45,626 nt of DNA, taken from NCBI GenBank assembly GCA_001414325.1, contig LLKB01000001.1:1472386-1518011 (forward strand), written 5' to 3'. The notes beneath the pieces are model-generated. The model ran no database searches. It worked only from the letters and a program-made list of their open reading frames with translations, and was not told the DNA's origin. Positions 33,428 through 39,634 of this stretch are shown here, in pieces. A program made the translations under genes and the position numbers. Position 1 is the stretch's first letter, and each line of letters opens with the position of its first letter. This DNA comes from Butyribacter intestini. GTDB lineage: Bacteria > Bacillota > Clostridia > Lachnospirales > Lachnospiraceae.

Positions 33428-33969
33428 ATGGACACCACAACAAACGGACAGACACCCGATATAAACGAAACACCCATGCAAAAAAATGATAACATAAGCA
33501 ACGAGGGATATTTTCAGGCATTTGTAACAAGCTCTGTTTCCGGCAGACCTGTTGAAAATGCTTCGATTGAGATAACATACCCCGATTTCAGCGATAGTGC
33601 CATAGACAATCTCACAACTGACTCTTCCGGAAAAACACCAGTCATAACTTTGAGAACACCGCCGCTCCAATACAGTATGACACCTTTAAGTAACCAGCCT
33701 TATTCCGTATATAATGTGCTTGTGCGTGCAAGAGGTTACGAAGAAGTTGAGATAGCCGGAACGGAAGTTTTGCCTGGCGAAACCTCTATACAAAACATAA
33801 GCCTTATTCCGATAGATGAAAACGAGCCTGAAAGTGCGGAAGTATTCGTTATACCTCCCCACACACTGTATGCCGAATATCCTCCAAAAATACCTGAGGA
33901 TGAAATAAAAGAAACCAATGAATCAGGTGAGGTTGTTCTCAGCCGTGTGGTAATCCCCGATGGAGTGCG
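33428..33969 (+). pseudogene. sleC: SleC-type spore cortex-lytic enzyme, N-terminal part (split by element)
   Basis: This part encodes the first 180 or so residues of a SleC-like germination enzyme: a polar start, a carboxypeptidase-regulatory-like beta domain (FQAFVTSSVSGRPVENASI, VLVRARGYEEVEI) and the segment ending VVIPDGVR. AAGGAG precedes the ATG. The frame continues nine codons into the inserted DNA, to a stop at 33997. Joined to 38851-39634 it forms one frame of 441 codons, close to the 438 of C. perfringens SleC. SleC degrades spore cortex peptidoglycan during germination and is made as a precursor. As the DNA stands the gene is broken; excision of the element would repair it. Confidence 0.88.
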
Positions 33970-33985
33970 ATTTTTACATTTTTTT
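33955..33985. other. Left attachment junction (attL)
   Basis: Host sequence GATGGAGTG is followed by CG at 33968-33969 and then element DNA (ATTTTTACAT). The matching CG is at 38849-38850. Confidence 0.65.
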
Positions 33986-34981
33986 TCTATTAGATAATGA
34001 TATGTTCGCATACATAAATTGTTCTTTTGAGATTATTGCCGGAACTGTCTCCTCGCAGCAAACCCATTCTTCCTTATTTAGATTTATCCTTTTATTTAGT
34101 TTATAATTAATTTTTCTGGTCTTGCCCTGTTGTAAAACTCCCGTATAAATTTCATTATTTAAAATTCTTCTAACTGAGTAAGGTTTCCATACAGACATTT
34201 CCGAATTTGCAAAAGAAGTTTTATAATTGCTGTTGTTCGCTTTTTTATACATATACGGTGACAATATCTTTTCCTCATTAAGTGCTCTTACGATTTTTTC
34301 AGCAGAATATCCGGCAATACGCATATCAAATATCTGTTTCACGACTTTTGCCGCCACATCATCTATAACAAGCCTGTTTTTATCACTATCAGACTTTTTG
34401 TACCCGTAAACCGCAAATGCCCCTATATATTTTCCACTCTCCCTTTTTACTTTCTGCGAATATCTTACTTTACATGATATATCTCTCGCATATGAGTCGT
34501 TTAACAGATTTAACAAAGGCACTGTTATCTTTCTCTCGTGATAGTCCGCTTTGTCGCTGTCATATCCGTCGGAAACAGAAATCACACGGATGTTGTTCAT
34601 AGGAAAATAATATTCTAACAATCTTCCGGTCTCAATGTAGTCTCTCCCAAGTCTTGACAGGTCTTTTACCATAATACATCTGACATTATTTTTTTCAATC
34701 CAGCCAAGCATTTTTATAAAACCCGGTCTGTTAAAATTCGTGCCCGTATATCCCTCATCAACAAACTCAGCAATATGTTTAAAATCATTTTTCAAAATAA
34801 ACCGTTCAAGTAATTTCCTCTGATTTTCCACACTATTAGTAATACTACTAATAGTGTTATTATCAGCACTACAGACAGCATTATCGTTTACATTAGCCAT
34901 ATCTTTGGAATTGAAAGTATAATCTCTTTCTCTAAGACCATCATTTTTTGATACTCTCAGATATGTAACACACTCCACCAT
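33974..34981 (-). CDS. Serine recombinase (large type, short C-terminus)
   Basis: A 335-residue site-specific recombinase. The resolvase domain (about 1-190) has catalytic Ser11 (TYLRVSKND), an unusually long polar insertion after it, then SVENQRKLLE, GYTGTNFNRPGF and MVKDLSRLGRDYIETG. The Recombinase domain (about 200-310) has FAVYGYKK and SVRRILNNEIYTGVL. The protein stops where the zinc-ribbon and coiled-coil domains of large serine integrases would begin, and its stop lies five bases from the left attachment core. It may be truncated or a minimal form. ATG 34981, behind GAGAGGG, is preferred to GTG 34990. Confidence 0.85.
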   Translation of the reverse strand: MVECVTYLRVSKNDGLRERDYTFNSKDMANVNDNAVCSADNNTISSITNSVENQRKLLERFILKNDFKHIAEFVDEGYTGTNFNRPGFIKMLGWIEKNNVRCIMVKDLSRLGRDYIETGRLLEYYFPMNNIRVISVSDGYDSDKADYHERKITVPLLNLLNDSYARDISCKVRYSQKVKRESGKYIGAFAVYGYKKSDSDKNRLVIDDVAAKVVKQIFDMRIAGYSAEKIVRALNEEKILSPYMYKKANNSNYKTSFANSEMSVWKPYSVRRILNNEIYTGVLQQGKTRKINYKLNKRINLNKEEWVCCEETVPAIISKEQFMYANISLSNRKKM

Positions 34982-35083
34982 ATACGACACCCTCTCCCTA
35001 AATACAAGCCAATTTTAAAATGCAGCAATCCGGCTTCTCAATTTACTACATTCATAAACCTATCAGCAAACTGCCTATTGCTG

Positions 35084-35350
35084 TTACCTAAAAAGAAATT
35101 TATATACAAAAAAAAGAGCTGATAATTCATAACAGTCAGGTGCGTTTTTATCCTCATCAAAAATATCGCTCTCATGCGGGATAATATCCTCTTTTAAAAA
35201 GGTATCATTTTCTTTAAAAATGCTGTCTTCTTTTTGACAGACAATATGTTCATCCGAAATAATATCCTCCGTTAATAATTCTTTAGAAACATTTCGTTCA
35301 GCAAAAATCTGTTTAGAAACATCATCATCCGAAAGAATCTGTTTTTTCAT
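35084..35350 (-). CDS. Small acidic protein of unknown function
   Basis: An 88-residue protein not recognised from any family. The first two thirds repeat a loose pattern of short acidic and hydrophobic stretches (ILSDDDVSKQIFAE, LLTEDIISDEHIV, TFLKEDIIPHESDIF). The last 20 residues are hydrophobic. AGAGG precedes ATG 35350. It lies 102 bases upstream of the recombinase on the same strand, so a role as partner or directionality factor is conceivable but unsupported by sequence. Confidence 0.45.
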   Translation of the reverse strand: MKKQILSDDDVSKQIFAERNVSKELLTEDIISDEHIVCQKEDSIFKENDTFLKEDIIPHESDIFDEDKNAPDCYELSALFFVYKFLFR

Positions 35351-35423
35351 ACAAGACAACCTCTGATTAAAATTTACAACCTAAACAATCTTTAAATTAT
35401 ACGCTCTTTATTTTTTATTATGA

Positions 35424-35492
35424 TTAATTTTGTTTAACATATCCATTTACAATCATATCTGCATTATCCGCAATTTTTAAAATGACAGGCAT
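35424..35492 (-). CDS. Candidate 22-residue peptide
   Basis: A short frame (MPVILKIADNADMIVNGY, then VKQN) follows AAGGAGG, but the gap of 12 bases to the ATG is long. It may be a real small peptide, a gene remnant or chance. Confidence 0.25.
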   Translation of the reverse strand: MPVILKIADNADMIVNGYVKQN

Positions 35493-35566
35493 TTTCTATC
35501 CTTACCTCCTTAATCGGTTTTAAAAATGTATCAGGTGATATCAGCCTAAGTTAAATAAGTTTTCAT

Positions 35567-36487
35567 TCACTCCTCAAACTCCTCAACAAATCGTTTCACC
35601 TCTGCCCACGCATTTTTTGATTCCTCAAGACGCTCAAGTCCCATCTGAAACACATGAAACATTTCTTCATATATCGTGATATTTGTTTTGCATCCCGCTT
35701 CTCTCGCCTTTTTCTCTGCAAGTACCGAATCACTTAAAAGCATCTCTATACCGCCTACCTGAAAGAGCATTGGTGGAAGTTTCGAAAAATCACCAAACAG
35801 CGGCGAGATATAAGGTTCTTTAGGCGAATGACCTCCGAGATATTCACCACTGTATATCATACTTTCCCTGGTATTTCCAAACAGCGGGTCAAGTGTATAA
35901 TTATCGTCATATGACGCTCCCGATGCCGTAAGGTCCGTCCACGGTGACATAAGCACAAGTCCCGCCGGAAGCGGCATATCATTATCCCTCAAATACTGGC
36001 TTAAGGCAAGACTAAGTCCGCCGCCCGCCGAATCTCCGGCAATGATTATATCTCTGCCCTCATACCCCGTAGCGAGCAGCCATTTATATGCTGCCACAGC
36101 ATCATCAAGAGCCGCCGGAAAAGGATTTTTCGGTGCAACTCTGTAATCTATCGACAAAGTCTTTATACCGCCACGCATCTCACAATACTCTTTTGCAAAA
36201 TTCCTATACACATTTCTCATCTTGCCAATATAACCGCCGCCATGAAGCTGAAGCACAACAAATCTGCTGCCCGTATTTTCAGGCGACAACAATTCCATTT
36301 CAAAATGCTTCATGTGTATTTTTGCAACCGAATATCCGTCCGGGCAATGCCACGGCGGCTCGACAAGTCTTCTCCTTATAGTTCCCTTTTTTATTGCAGG
36401 ACCTATGATAAACCCTGATGAAACCATGTTTATAACATTTCTCACAAGTTTTGCGCGCAAACTTATATTATCAACTTCTTTAACCAT
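35567..36487 (-). CDS. Alpha/beta hydrolase (HSL-type esterase)
   Basis: A 306-residue carboxylesterase of the hormone-sensitive-lipase group: oxyanion-hole motif HGGGY (82-86), nucleophile Ser153 in GDSAGGG, and His278 in EMFHVFQM. The acid is Glu248 or Asp253 in GGIEMLLSDS. It has no signal peptide. It lies third in the cargo run of the element, after the acyltransferase-like and DUF6320 genes, and is separated from DUF6320 by a MITE insertion. Pairing with an acyltransferase suggests making and removing an ester or acyl mark, but the substrate is unknown. GAGG precedes the ATG. Confidence 0.85.
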   Translation of the reverse strand: MVKEVDNISLRAKLVRNVINMVSSGFIIGPAIKKGTIRRRLVEPPWHCPDGYSVAKIHMKHFEMELLSPENTGSRFVVLQLHGGGYIGKMRNVYRNFAKEYCEMRGGIKTLSIDYRVAPKNPFPAALDDAVAAYKWLLATGYEGRDIIIAGDSAGGGLSLALSQYLRDNDMPLPAGLVLMSPWTDLTASGASYDDNYTLDPLFGNTRESMIYSGEYLGGHSPKEPYISPLFGDFSKLPPMLFQVGGIEMLLSDSVLAEKKAREAGCKTNITIYEEMFHVFQMGLERLEESKNAWAEVKRFVEEFEE

Positions 36488-36512
36488 AAAAACCTCACTT
36501 AATATAATTAGA

Positions 36513-36716
36513 TGATGTTAGGGTCAAAAGTAGATAGCAATGCATGTTTATATGCAAATTGCTATCTACTGGCTTGACCCGCCAAACACCGACATAAAGC
36601 AGATTTGCTTGCAAATATGCGCGAATGGAGGTGTTTGCAGGATTGCGAAAATTGCGTAGCAATGAAGCAATCCTGAGCATCAGTTAGGTTCAAAATACCT
36701 TTTGACCCTAACATCA
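36513..36716. mobile_element. MITE: 204 bp with perfect 18-bp inverted ends and TTAGA target duplication
   Basis: TGATGTTAGGGTCAAAAG (36513-36530) and its exact complement (36699-36716) form the ends. TTAGA flanks both sides (36508-36512 and 36717-36721). Internal stems: 36529-36541 with 36558-36570, 36583-36590 with 36630-36637, and 36639-36646 with 36667-36674. The left-end GGGTCAA can pair either with the far end or with TTGACCC at 36574-36580. No ORF is credible. Confidence 0.88.
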
Positions 36717-36791
36717 TTAGATTCATATTTGTAGCAAATATACTTTGCCCATGACTGATGAAATTGCTGTCTGCTTCTGACAATAACATCA

Positions 36792-37457
36792 TCATATATA
36801 AAATTTCCGCTTTAATTCATTTCTTGCCTTTCTGTCTCCAATAACCACGCTTGAGGTAAATAAAATAAGCGATACCAAAAAACTTGTCCACGGAAGGACA
36901 GGGCTTTGAAGTACCTTTGTAAAATAAAGTGCCATCTGAACTGCACCGAGTATAACACAAAATATCTGAAGAAGCAGATAACTCTCCCAGTTCTGCCTGT
37001 TTATTATCATACAGACTATTATTATCGCATCAAGCGTAAGCACGATAACCGGCATCCCGACACCCAACGACCAGCCTTTGTAACCAAGCACAAAATCCAC
37101 AAGCATTATATAAAACAATGCACCTATAAAACCAACATACATCTTTTTAATATGTCCATAATGGTCGTTTATTATAAAATGAAGCATACATATAACATAA
37201 ACAATAGCACCTCCTGATATTGCCGACCATTTAACACCTTCAAAATTATAATAATTTATAACAATGAACACGATTTCAAGAACAATGGCAAAATAAGAAA
37301 AAATATTTACTATCCGTCTGAGTATCTTTGTTTTCTGCCTTACATCAGGATATGTGTTCTCGTTATGTTTATCATCACCAGACAAAACCATATCACACAT
37401 AGGACATACCTTAGTTTTATCTTTTATTTTTATTCCACAATTTTTACATTCAATCAT
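36792..37457 (-). CDS. DUF6320 zinc-ribbon membrane protein
   Basis: The 221-residue protein begins with a short zinc ribbon (CKNCGIKIKDKTKVCPMC, residues 4-21), then has about six membrane helices and a basic C-terminal tail. This layout fits DUF6320, which is of unknown function. Its start overlaps the acyltransferase gene stop by eight bases, implying coupled translation and a joint role. Confidence 0.82.
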   Translation of the reverse strand: MIECKNCGIKIKDKTKVCPMCDMVLSGDDKHNENTYPDVRQKTKILRRIVNIFSYFAIVLEIVFIVINYYNFEGVKWSAISGGAIVYVICMLHFIINDHYGHIKKMYVGFIGALFYIMLVDFVLGYKGWSLGVGMPVIVLTLDAIIIVCMIINRQNWESYLLLQIFCVILGAVQMALYFTKVLQSPVLPWTSFLVSLILFTSSVVIGDRKARNELKRKFYI

Positions 37458-38733
37458 AATACACCCCGTTGCTTTCTATAGAAATATCAACGCCATCTTC
37501 TACAAGTTTTCTGAAAAATCCTCTCTGAATAGCAGTGTCCCTCAAAATCGAAGTAAAAGTAAATACCATCGTATCATTGTAAGAACATATTGCTCCTTTT
37601 ATATTCTGTCCCGTTGATATTGAGATCATTGCATGAAAACTTTTTATAAACGGTGCATATTCTTCATCTATTTTTATATTTCCAATATTTGTCACGGTTG
37701 AAGTATTTGCCTTTGCTGACGAAAGATATACAAGCTTCATTGCTATCTTTTTTATAAAAAACGGAATAGACCTTAAAAGTATATTTTTTTGATTTGAAAC
37801 ATTGTACGAAAACAAATCTTCAAGATGTTCTTTTGTTATCTGCCCACGCAGACTTTTCTTTACAATGTCCGCTATTTCCTCAAATGAATACTCATCTTTT
37901 TCCGGCTTAAAAACAGCACTCACCATAACAAAAAAATTTCTTGTCGTCATCGAATCAAAAAACGGTCTGAGATTTACCGGCACGGCACACACTATAGGCT
38001 TATCAGACCTCATTCTTTTAAGATATTCAACATATACACTATACATAAATACAATTACAAAATACTCATTTATGCTCGTATCATATTTTTTAGCCGCCTG
38101 CTTAACCTGTTGCACGCTCATATAACCGTGCATGACACCAAGCTCACCTCTTGAAAGTTTTTCGCCTTTTACCTCTACTGCTCTCTTTGTTTCATAGCCT
38201 TTTGCATGGCCTTTTTTATAATTTTTTACATAACTGTCCTCAGTATTTAATGATGTATGCTCAGACAGCCTGTTCTTCTTTACCGCCGCAATCTCCGGAT
38301 ATTTAAGTCTGAGATACTGATATGTGACTTCTCTTAAAAAATTAATACCGCCCATACCATCCGCAAGTACATGAAAAACTTCAAGGTTTATTCTCTTTCT
38401 GTAATAAGTAATCCTGAACAGATAATTGTTGTTACTGTAAGGCTCAATATATCTGCAGGGAAAATCATGCTCCTTTACAACCTTTGGAGCAGGCTTGTTA
38501 TTTGTTTCAAAATAATACCAAAATATTCCTTTCTGCATACATACATTAAATGCATCAAAACCCGGCAGCACCATATCCAGTGCTTTCTGTAAAAGCTCTG
38601 CGTCAACCTCCTCGGTAAGATTGACTGAAATTCGATATACATTCGTCGTCTCCTCCGAAGCAATCGCCGGGAAAAGAACTGCCGTATTATCAAGTTTTTC
38701 CCAATTTTTCTTTCTATGTCTACGCTTTTTCAT
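37450..38733 (-). CDS. Condensation-fold acyltransferase-like protein
   Basis: A 427-residue protein resembling alcohol acetyltransferases and condensation-domain enzymes: the HxxxDG motif is intact as HVLADG (residues 121-126). A second conserved region, VCAVPVNLRPFFDSMTTRNF, fits the bridge of the two-lobed fold, and TSTVTNIGNI the late motif. It likely moves an acyl group between a CoA or carrier and an acceptor; the acceptor is unknown. It is the first gene of the cargo run, with a putative promoter beside the right attachment site. The very basic N-terminus (KKRRHRKK) is unusual. Confidence 0.75.
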   Translation of the reverse strand: MKKRRHRKKNWEKLDNTAVLFPAIASEETTNVYRISVNLTEEVDAELLQKALDMVLPGFDAFNVCMQKGIFWYYFETNNKPAPKVVKEHDFPCRYIEPYSNNNYLFRITYYRKRINLEVFHVLADGMGGINFLREVTYQYLRLKYPEIAAVKKNRLSEHTSLNTEDSYVKNYKKGHAKGYETKRAVEVKGEKLSRGELGVMHGYMSVQQVKQAAKKYDTSINEYFVIVFMYSVYVEYLKRMRSDKPIVCAVPVNLRPFFDSMTTRNFFVMVSAVFKPEKDEYSFEEIADIVKKSLRGQITKEHLEDLFSYNVSNQKNILLRSIPFFIKKIAMKLVYLSSAKANTSTVTNIGNIKIDEEYAPFIKSFHAMISISTGQNIKGAICSYNDTMVFTFTSILRDTAIQRGFFRKLVEDGVDISIESNGVYYD

Positions 38734-38809
38734 AAGCTGTCCCCATTCTTAGTTACTGTGAAAGCAAATTCACTTTTTCAAAGACTTTACAAAAATTTGT
38801 CTTATTTAT

Positions 38810-38838
38810 AGTATATACTAAAAAATAATATTTTTAAA
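38810..38838 (-). promoter_or_regulatory. Putative promoter of the cargo operon
   Basis: Minus-strand TTTAAA (38833-38838, weak), 17 bases, TATACT (38810-38815). It lies just inside the right end of the element. Confidence 0.4.
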
Positions 38839-38865
38839 GTATGATTTACGCACACCTGCCCCCGA
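38835..38865. other. Right attachment junction (attR)
   Basis: Element DNA ending GATTTA is followed by CG (38849-38850) and host CACACCTGCC. Joined with the left side, the site reads GGAGTG-CG-CACACC, an imperfect palindrome (5 of 6 positions per arm) about the core. Confidence 0.65.
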
Positions 38866-39634
38866 ATATGTAATCGTGCATGACGGTCCGCCATCTGACA
38901 GCCGTGCCAAAGATTATTATGTGACATACAAAGACTATATCAAAAATGTTGCATCAAGCGAAATCTATGCTACATGGCCTGAGGCAACCCTTACAGCAAA
39001 TATCCTCGCCATACAGTCCATAACTTTAAACAGAGTTTATACGGAGTGGTACCGAAATAAAGGCTATGATTTCACAATCACCTCTTCCACCGCCTACGAC
39101 CAAAAATGGATTCCCGGAAGAAATATCTTCGATAATATATCAAGGATTGTTGACAACATCTTTACAAACTACATTTCAAGACCAAATGTAAGACAGCCGC
39201 TTTTTACACAGTATTGTGATGGAAAAATGGTGTCATGCCCTGACTGGATGCGTCAGTGGGATTCAAAATATCTCGGCGACCAGGGATATTCTGCGATAGA
39301 AATACTCCGTGCATTTTACGGTAATTCCGTTTATATAAACAGTTCAACTGAAATTTCAGGAATACCATCTTCATGGCCGGGTTATGACCTGACGATAGGT
39401 GCAACCGGAAGCAAAGTTTTGCAGATGCAGCAGCAGTTAAATGTAATAGCAGATGCATATCCTCTTATACCTAAAATATCCCAGGATGGAATTTACGGTG
39501 AAAAAACTGCAAATGCAGTAAAGATATTCCAAAAAATATTTGGTCTGCCCCAAACCGGAGTAACAGATTTCCCAACATGGTATAAAATTTCTGAGATTTA
39601 TGTCGGCGTGAGCAGGATTGCTGAAATGGCTTAA
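38851..39634 (+). pseudogene. sleC: SleC-type spore cortex-lytic enzyme, C-terminal part
   Basis: It carries the rest of the split enzyme in one open frame: TPAPEYVIVHDGPPSDS, the SleC/SpoIID-like catalytic region (YIKNVASSEIYATWPEATL, LNRVYTEWYRNKGYDF, TQYCDGKMVSCPDW) and a C-terminal PG_binding_1 domain (about the last 80 residues, LTIGATGSKVLQMQQQLN and DGIYGEKTANAVKIFQ). The first ATG (38876) is internal and has no ribosome site, so this piece is not expected to be made alone. The sequence is free of stops and shifts, which argues that selection still maintains it or the insertion is recent. Confidence 0.88.

Follow-up and report, generated by a model that had tools for sequence, protein, structure and literature searches.

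The question raised by this locus is whether a spore gene that lies in two pieces is simply broken or is stored in that form and rebuilt during sporulation. In the window (the whole 45,626-nt stretch of Butyribacter intestini DNA that was analyzed), a SleC gene is present on the plus strand as two stop-free halves, at 33428 to 33960 and at 38860 to 39634, around a unit of 4,905 bp. The 5' half, including the repeat shared by both edges, is an open frame with 52% identity to residues 4 to 167 of the whole SleC of a relative (G004); the left open frame itself extends from 33428 to 33997, and homology to SleC ends at about codon 180. The 3' half, which carries the stop codon, has 81% identity to residues 160 to 420 of the same protein. 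A profile of right halves matched PDB 9h68, "Spore cortex-lytic enzyme pre-pro-form" (E value of 2.3e-112), and Pfam found PG_binding_1 and a borderline SpoIID domain in it. Each half occurs as a single copy in the genome's own assembly, and no excised sleC junction was found in that assembly. The sequence-only reading had described two stop-free SleC-like halves flanking a serine recombinase, and this description stands: both halves are open and homologous, and Pfam finds the recombinase.

To place the joint, whole SleC was read in five relatives, with frames of 428 to 435 codons. As had been anticipated in the proposal to check sleC of related genomes, an uninterrupted allele exists, and the whole genes abut at a shared CCCCGA, copies of which lie at 33955 to 33960 and 38860 to 38865 of the window. 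Joined at this repeat, the halves form an in-frame gene of 434 codons with the stop (433 amino acids), and the two repeat copies lie 4,905 bp from each other. The joint first proposed, 33969/38851, was rejected because whole relatives abut at CCCCGA; it keeps the frame and is 8 codons off, so that the earlier spacing of 4881 bases and joined length of 442 codons including stop are replaced by the values given above.

The edges of the unit resemble recombination sites. The window's attL (33945 to 33970) consists of GTAATCCCC followed by the element arm GATGGAGTGCGA, and its attR (38846 to 38873) of the element arm CGCACACCTGC followed by CCCCGAATATG. The same pattern, with arm variants, is found in other species cut at this position (site A), where attL reads GTAATCCCC[G/T]CTGGTGT and attR reads ACACCA[G/T]CCCCCGAATA; the right edge was the same in eight other loci, and the left edge was also read in four of these. 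The window's arm variants are GATGGAGT and ACACCTG. When joined, the window flanks are identical over 23 nt to the uninterrupted site of the G004 locus L047, GTAATCCCCGAATATGTAATCGT. By eye, the element arms are inverted repeats around CC (CGCACACCTGCC-CC-CGATGGAGTGCG in the window), which places the center of the left copy at 33956 to 33957, a symmetry that would be expected of a serine-integrase attP. Since the insertion point and the att sequences recur in other species, the split is more than a chance event.

The unit carries few genes, all on the minus strand. A serine recombinase of the rec1 type (338 amino acids; 33974 to 34990) has its 3' end against attL and matched Pfam Resolvase (1.8e-16) and Recombinase (5.1e-23). 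Its Y-L-R-x-S and KDLSR-x-G-R blocks are invariant among six orthologues (6-row alignment), and shortly after the Y-L-R-x-S block the window's enzyme has about 27 inserted residues. It missed the cutoffs for the staphylococcal cassette recombinases CcrA/B/C (60.7 bits versus 700, 60.2 versus 900, and 46.8 versus 900). The cargo consists of an alpha/beta hydrolase (Abhydrolase_3; 35567 to 36487; Pfam 1.3e-47), a DUF6320 protein (36792 to 37457; Pfam 1.2e-50), and a 427-amino-acid protein, "cond" (37450 to 38733), without a Pfam or PHROG match, which may be condensation/acyltransferase-like. A MITE-like segment with terminal inverted repeats ATGATGTTAGGGTCAAAAG was noted by eye between the hydrolase and DUF6320 genes (36512 to 36717). 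A 91-codon open reading frame (ORF) at 35084 to 35359 lies where five relatives carry a conserved ORF of 62 to 77 codons, a correspondence by position only; three of the relatives' ORFs were scanned, and none matched Pfam or PHROG. This small conserved ORF near rec1 could be a directionality factor. Beyond the recombinase, the hydrolase, DUF6320, and two further ORFs, no phage structural or packaging genes were found in the window's element with Pfam or PHROG, and a phage-borne element was rejected on this ground. The site-A elements of the five relatives have the same cargo and two recombinases, rec1 (304 to 399 codons) and rec2 (249 to 266 codons; cut by a contig end in L037), versus one in the window.

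Next, the genus was surveyed. Many of its 28 assemblies are fragmented, and in several the sleC pieces sit on different contigs. sleC is split in 15 of the 28 genomes (both pieces were found in 13 of these) and whole in nine (G004, G005, G009, G010, G012, G016, G017, G020, and G026). Ten genomes are cut at site A (G000, G001, G002, G003, G011, G014, G015, G018, G021, and G025), and in G001 and G025 the 3' part starts only near residue 218 to 222 on another contig, a second cut. Four are cut at site B, near residue 190 (G006, G008, G023, and G027, the last with the 3' piece only), and in G019 the only piece is a 5' one that stops near residue 228. The remaining four gave no usable sleC match (none in G007, G013, and G022; a weak paralogue in G024). 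Among 80 named loci, eight lacked a whole SleC in one stretch, and one of the named metagenome-assembled genomes (L053, CANPZE010000012.1) is a further site-A case. G025 also has three contigs (L046, L219, and L220) with sleC 5' parts that end near residue 226 to 230 with a recombinase gene nearby; these may be paralogues, strains, or mis-binning. spoIVA scored above the cutoff in 24 of the 28 genomes, including that of the window. In G016 (C52:17855-19326), spoIVA appeared as two overlapping pieces, which may reflect a frameshift or an assembly error.

To ascertain the age of the site-A element, gene and element were compared among species. Identity matrices for the right half, the left half, the cargo, and both recombinases group the species alike. 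A SleC tree built from 198 columns, with good support for 7 of its 27 inner branches, puts site-A species on the early branches of the genus and nests the whole genes among them. The concordant matrices and the tree placement favor an old site-A element, vertically kept, that would have been restored to a whole gene later in some species. The cargo lies downstream of sleC in four species with a whole gene (G004, G010, G016, and G026) and three site-B species (G008, G023, and G027); none was seen there in G012, nor at the short loci that represent the remaining four species with a whole gene. In G004, an attR-like remnant and the start of the sleC 3' half lie beyond the cargo, beside the whole sleC (L047:12232-12276). 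The 38-bp remnant has 3 mismatches in 38 positions, versus a lowest value of 16 in 200 shuffles, and is apparently the trace of a former split since restored. The search covered seven genomes in which sleC is not cut at site A, and no such remnant was found beyond the cargo in the other six.

Selection was estimated by the Nei-Gojobori method; synonymous sites were near saturation, and for the halves and the whole gene only pairs with a synonymous difference below 0.72 were used. The dN/dS ratio was 0.022 to 0.032 for the right half (six pairs of split G002, G014, G018, and G021) and 0.042 for the whole gene in the pair G004-G012. Among G001, G014, G015, G018, and G021, it was 0.10 to 0.20 for the left half (10 pairs; those of G026, whose row was out of frame, were left out), 0.05 to 0.12 for rec1 (7 of 10 pairs computable), 0.13 to 0.23 for rec2 (8 of 10 pairs computable), and 0.08 to 0.13 for "cond"; the small ORF next to rec1 was weakly constrained (0.34 to 0.81). 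The halves and recombinases of the split relatives are thus under purifying selection. The window's left half is the most divergent (49 to 55% identity to other left halves), with dN/dS of 0.21 to 0.22 versus G014 and G021. One stop was present in the right half of split G015, and three stops in the G001 rec2 row and one in the G015 rec1 row were found in alignments that possibly run past the gene end.

One of the 10 site-A genomes, G011, has an empty junction. Its contig C78 has the right half behind the element. Contig C6 reads from the left half across a restored site into the right half and stops there, its last 58 nt being identical to the C78 right half. An assembler can produce such a pair from a sample that contains both forms, and the pair could also reflect a strain mixture in a metagenome bin. 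A scan of the other site-A loci (16 loci in 12 genomes; L044 gave no match) found attL and/or attR only and no second empty site.

Cuts in sleC extend beyond the genus. SleC was detected at an E value of 1e-25 in at least 199 of 298 family genomes of at least 90% completeness, and the 27 other-genus genomes with the weakest best SleC matches were analyzed. Nineteen have two sleC pieces, which meet near residue 228 in 6 (G077, G140, G210, G316, G319, and G343) or at 293 to 300 in 13; the rest comprise two uncertain cases (G134 and G165), five with one piece only, and one unsplit gene (G125). A joint search of 16 split loci gave an in-frame, stop-free join in 15, with a repeat of 4 to 11 nt in 13 of these, only 2 to 3 nt in L256 and L262, and no joint in L036 (G015). 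Because the search demanded frame and absence of stops, frame alone is no evidence for these joints; the repeat lengths are. The repeats were ACGGAGTGGTA at site C (two loci), TGACC at site D (four loci), and AAAGACTATAT at site B. Where a single locus contains both parts, the elements at sites A, C, and D show similarity to recombinases no more than about 1.1 kb from one of their edges, and this similarity is weak at site D (49 to 63 bits). At site B, the G023 element encodes Xis and a tyrosine integrase like that of Tn916. The site-C integrase had no relative of 60% identity or more in 289 matching phage records, with 22 to 25% among the 15 matches listed. Of 22 viral records with SleC, 16 (some of them near-duplicates) are cut at residues 293 to 300, 3 are cut at 211, 1 begins at 182, and 2 are near whole; L296 is also cut at 230. 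The prophage and site C and D insertions may be recent and are not necessarily programmed.

The partner gene cspB was examined as well. CspB matures pro-SleC in Clostridium perfringens and Clostridioides difficile, and in C. difficile sleC is under sigma-K control and the csp operon under sigma-E control (PMC3789822). In the window's genome, outside the window, cspB is also split (C5:437597-442691, equal to L150:9598-14692): two serine recombinase domains lie between a CspB prodomain piece and a catalytic piece, and the first of these domains shares a reading frame with the prodomain piece. Upstream there is a third recombinase gene, and prodomain positions 1 to 33 are absent; the N end may itself be interrupted by another recombinase gene. 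The cut follows the DSG codons, which presumably hold the catalytic Asp. It recurs in six more of the 28 genomes (G001, G007, G008, G013, G018, and G021), with both pieces found in G008, G013, and G021. A second cspB copy in G002 was dropped as probably mis-binned, given that its contig (L210) is 99.93% identical over 3,034 bp to that of G018 (L209). Among 34 other-genus genomes, chosen for a split sleC or a near-complete assembly, three (G096, G177, and G340) have cspB in two pieces at other positions; no CspB relatives were confirmed in viral_contigs. A joint of the window genome's cspB at its longest repeat, GGGATTG, was rejected as out of frame. In a hand-worked reading, a symmetric attP with a GG center would give an in-frame joint.

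Taken together, these results make sleC a probable target of mother-cell excision of the skin type, both new and recurrent, that would be rebuilt as 433 codons and a stop. The vegetative chromosome would carry sleC as two halves, with the element between serine-recombinase attL and attR sites. Recombination at CC within CCCCGA would release a 4,905-bp circle and reconstitute one sleC reading frame. In C. difficile it is the mother cell that makes SleC, and since this cell dies, the element would persist in the germ line. We infer both the excision and its timing, the latter from sleC and csp expression in C. difficile and from the known cases. The window's single recombinase would still have to work, alone or with a partner elsewhere, e.g., in the cspB cassette of the same genome. 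Of the programmed rearrangement proposed at the outset, the non-phage element and the abutment of the halves in whole homologues hold, and purifying selection and the empty junction in one relative are in its favor; its joint, 8 codons off, does not hold. Counting against excision are the missing second recombinase of the window's element, the insertion in its recombinase, the divergent left half, the G015 stop, the possible stops in the G001 rec2 row, the occurrence of the empty junction in one genome only, which a strain mixture could explain, and TATAAT-like boxes upstream of the cargo in three loci; with one recombinase gone, the case is weaker for the window's own copy.

The plain inactivating insertion that had been offered as the alternative is a poor fit to an old site-A element. 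A broader form of it, in which sleC is a safe harbor where insertions cost nothing in vegetative life and the gene is inactivated and never restored in sporulation, draws on the variety of insertions, many of them prophages, and of their positions in the gene, on the reduction of the window's element to one recombinase, and on the single stop in G015. We regard it as unlikely, given that both halves and rec1 are under purifying selection in diverged split species and that element and gene diverge in step. From the comparative evidence, a merely dead gene is unlikely in the site-A lineage, and excision offers the simplest account of why both halves and the recombinases are kept.

Excision might instead be random, occurring in a minority of cells without mother-cell control as a switch that lets part of the spores germinate. 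The presence of both the split form and an empty junction in one metagenome assembly would fit such a switch, as would TATAAT-like boxes seen by eye upstream of the cargo-recombinase genes in three species (L033, L034, and L035), which do not suggest a mother-cell promoter. However, the constitutive recombinase of the C. difficile skin element is restricted by a mother-cell directionality factor (PMC5025042), and the small, weakly constrained ORF by rec1 (see above) is a candidate for such a factor; random excision seems quite improbable to us. Least credible, with hardly any weight, is that each half is translated and functions as a polypeptide of its own: both are open, and the right half contains both the peptidoglycan-binding domain and the weak SpoIID match, but other genomes are cut at about 190, 211, 228, and 293, so that no single division of labor fits.

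Mother-cell excision of sleC can be extended to a two-step licensing of germination, to which we give an even chance. Both sleC and cspB would be kept in split form until the mother cell rebuilds them, in the case of sleC through two short serine recombinases domesticated before the genus radiated, and both genes would be recurrent targets across Lachnospiraceae. So far, only a few genes of spore formers are known to undergo programmed excision. If the proposal is true, the cutting of sleC at five or more positions by unrelated recombinases across a bacterial family, with one version under selection within a genus, would make such excision general among gut spore formers and link it to germination, on which the passage of commensals between hosts depends. 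Annotation may also call sleC and cspB broken when they are not, so that spore-forming ability would be underpredicted.

The split spore genes listed in PMC10747680 are sigK, spsM, spoVFB, gerE, and yabG, a list without sleC or cspB. Neither was named as an excision target in the titles and abstract openings listed by searches of the open-license literature in PMC. Among known systems, the temperate phage SP-beta interrupts a spore gene, spsM of Bacillus subtilis, as do the viral records in which sleC is cut at 293 to 300; unlike the window's element, it is an active phage, and its target is a different gene (PMC4191935). skin-Cd in sigK of C. difficile resembles the window in that a serine recombinase gene adjoins one half of a split mother-cell gene but differs in being prophage-like, with a known directionality factor and a sigma-factor target (PMC5025042). 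yin splits yabG, a late spore gene of the same pathway, in Clostridium botulinum, and YabG processes CspBA and pre-pro-SleC in C. difficile; unlike the window's element, yin is prophage-like and is described from one isolate (PMC10747680). gin in gerE of Bacillus cereus ATCC10987 is, like the window's, a phage-gene-free element with serine recombinases that splits a spore gene, with a short repeat and an inverted-repeat att site, and its excision restores the gene (PMC5595907). At 28.6 kb, gin has three serine recombinases (GirC among them), its target is a mother-cell regulator, and its excision was demonstrated (PMC5595907), and the elements are set apart by recombinase number, three versus one in the window and two in its relatives. 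In contrast to gin, the window's element, for which excision is predicted, spans 4.9 kb, has one recombinase, splits a germination enzyme, and is conserved across many species.
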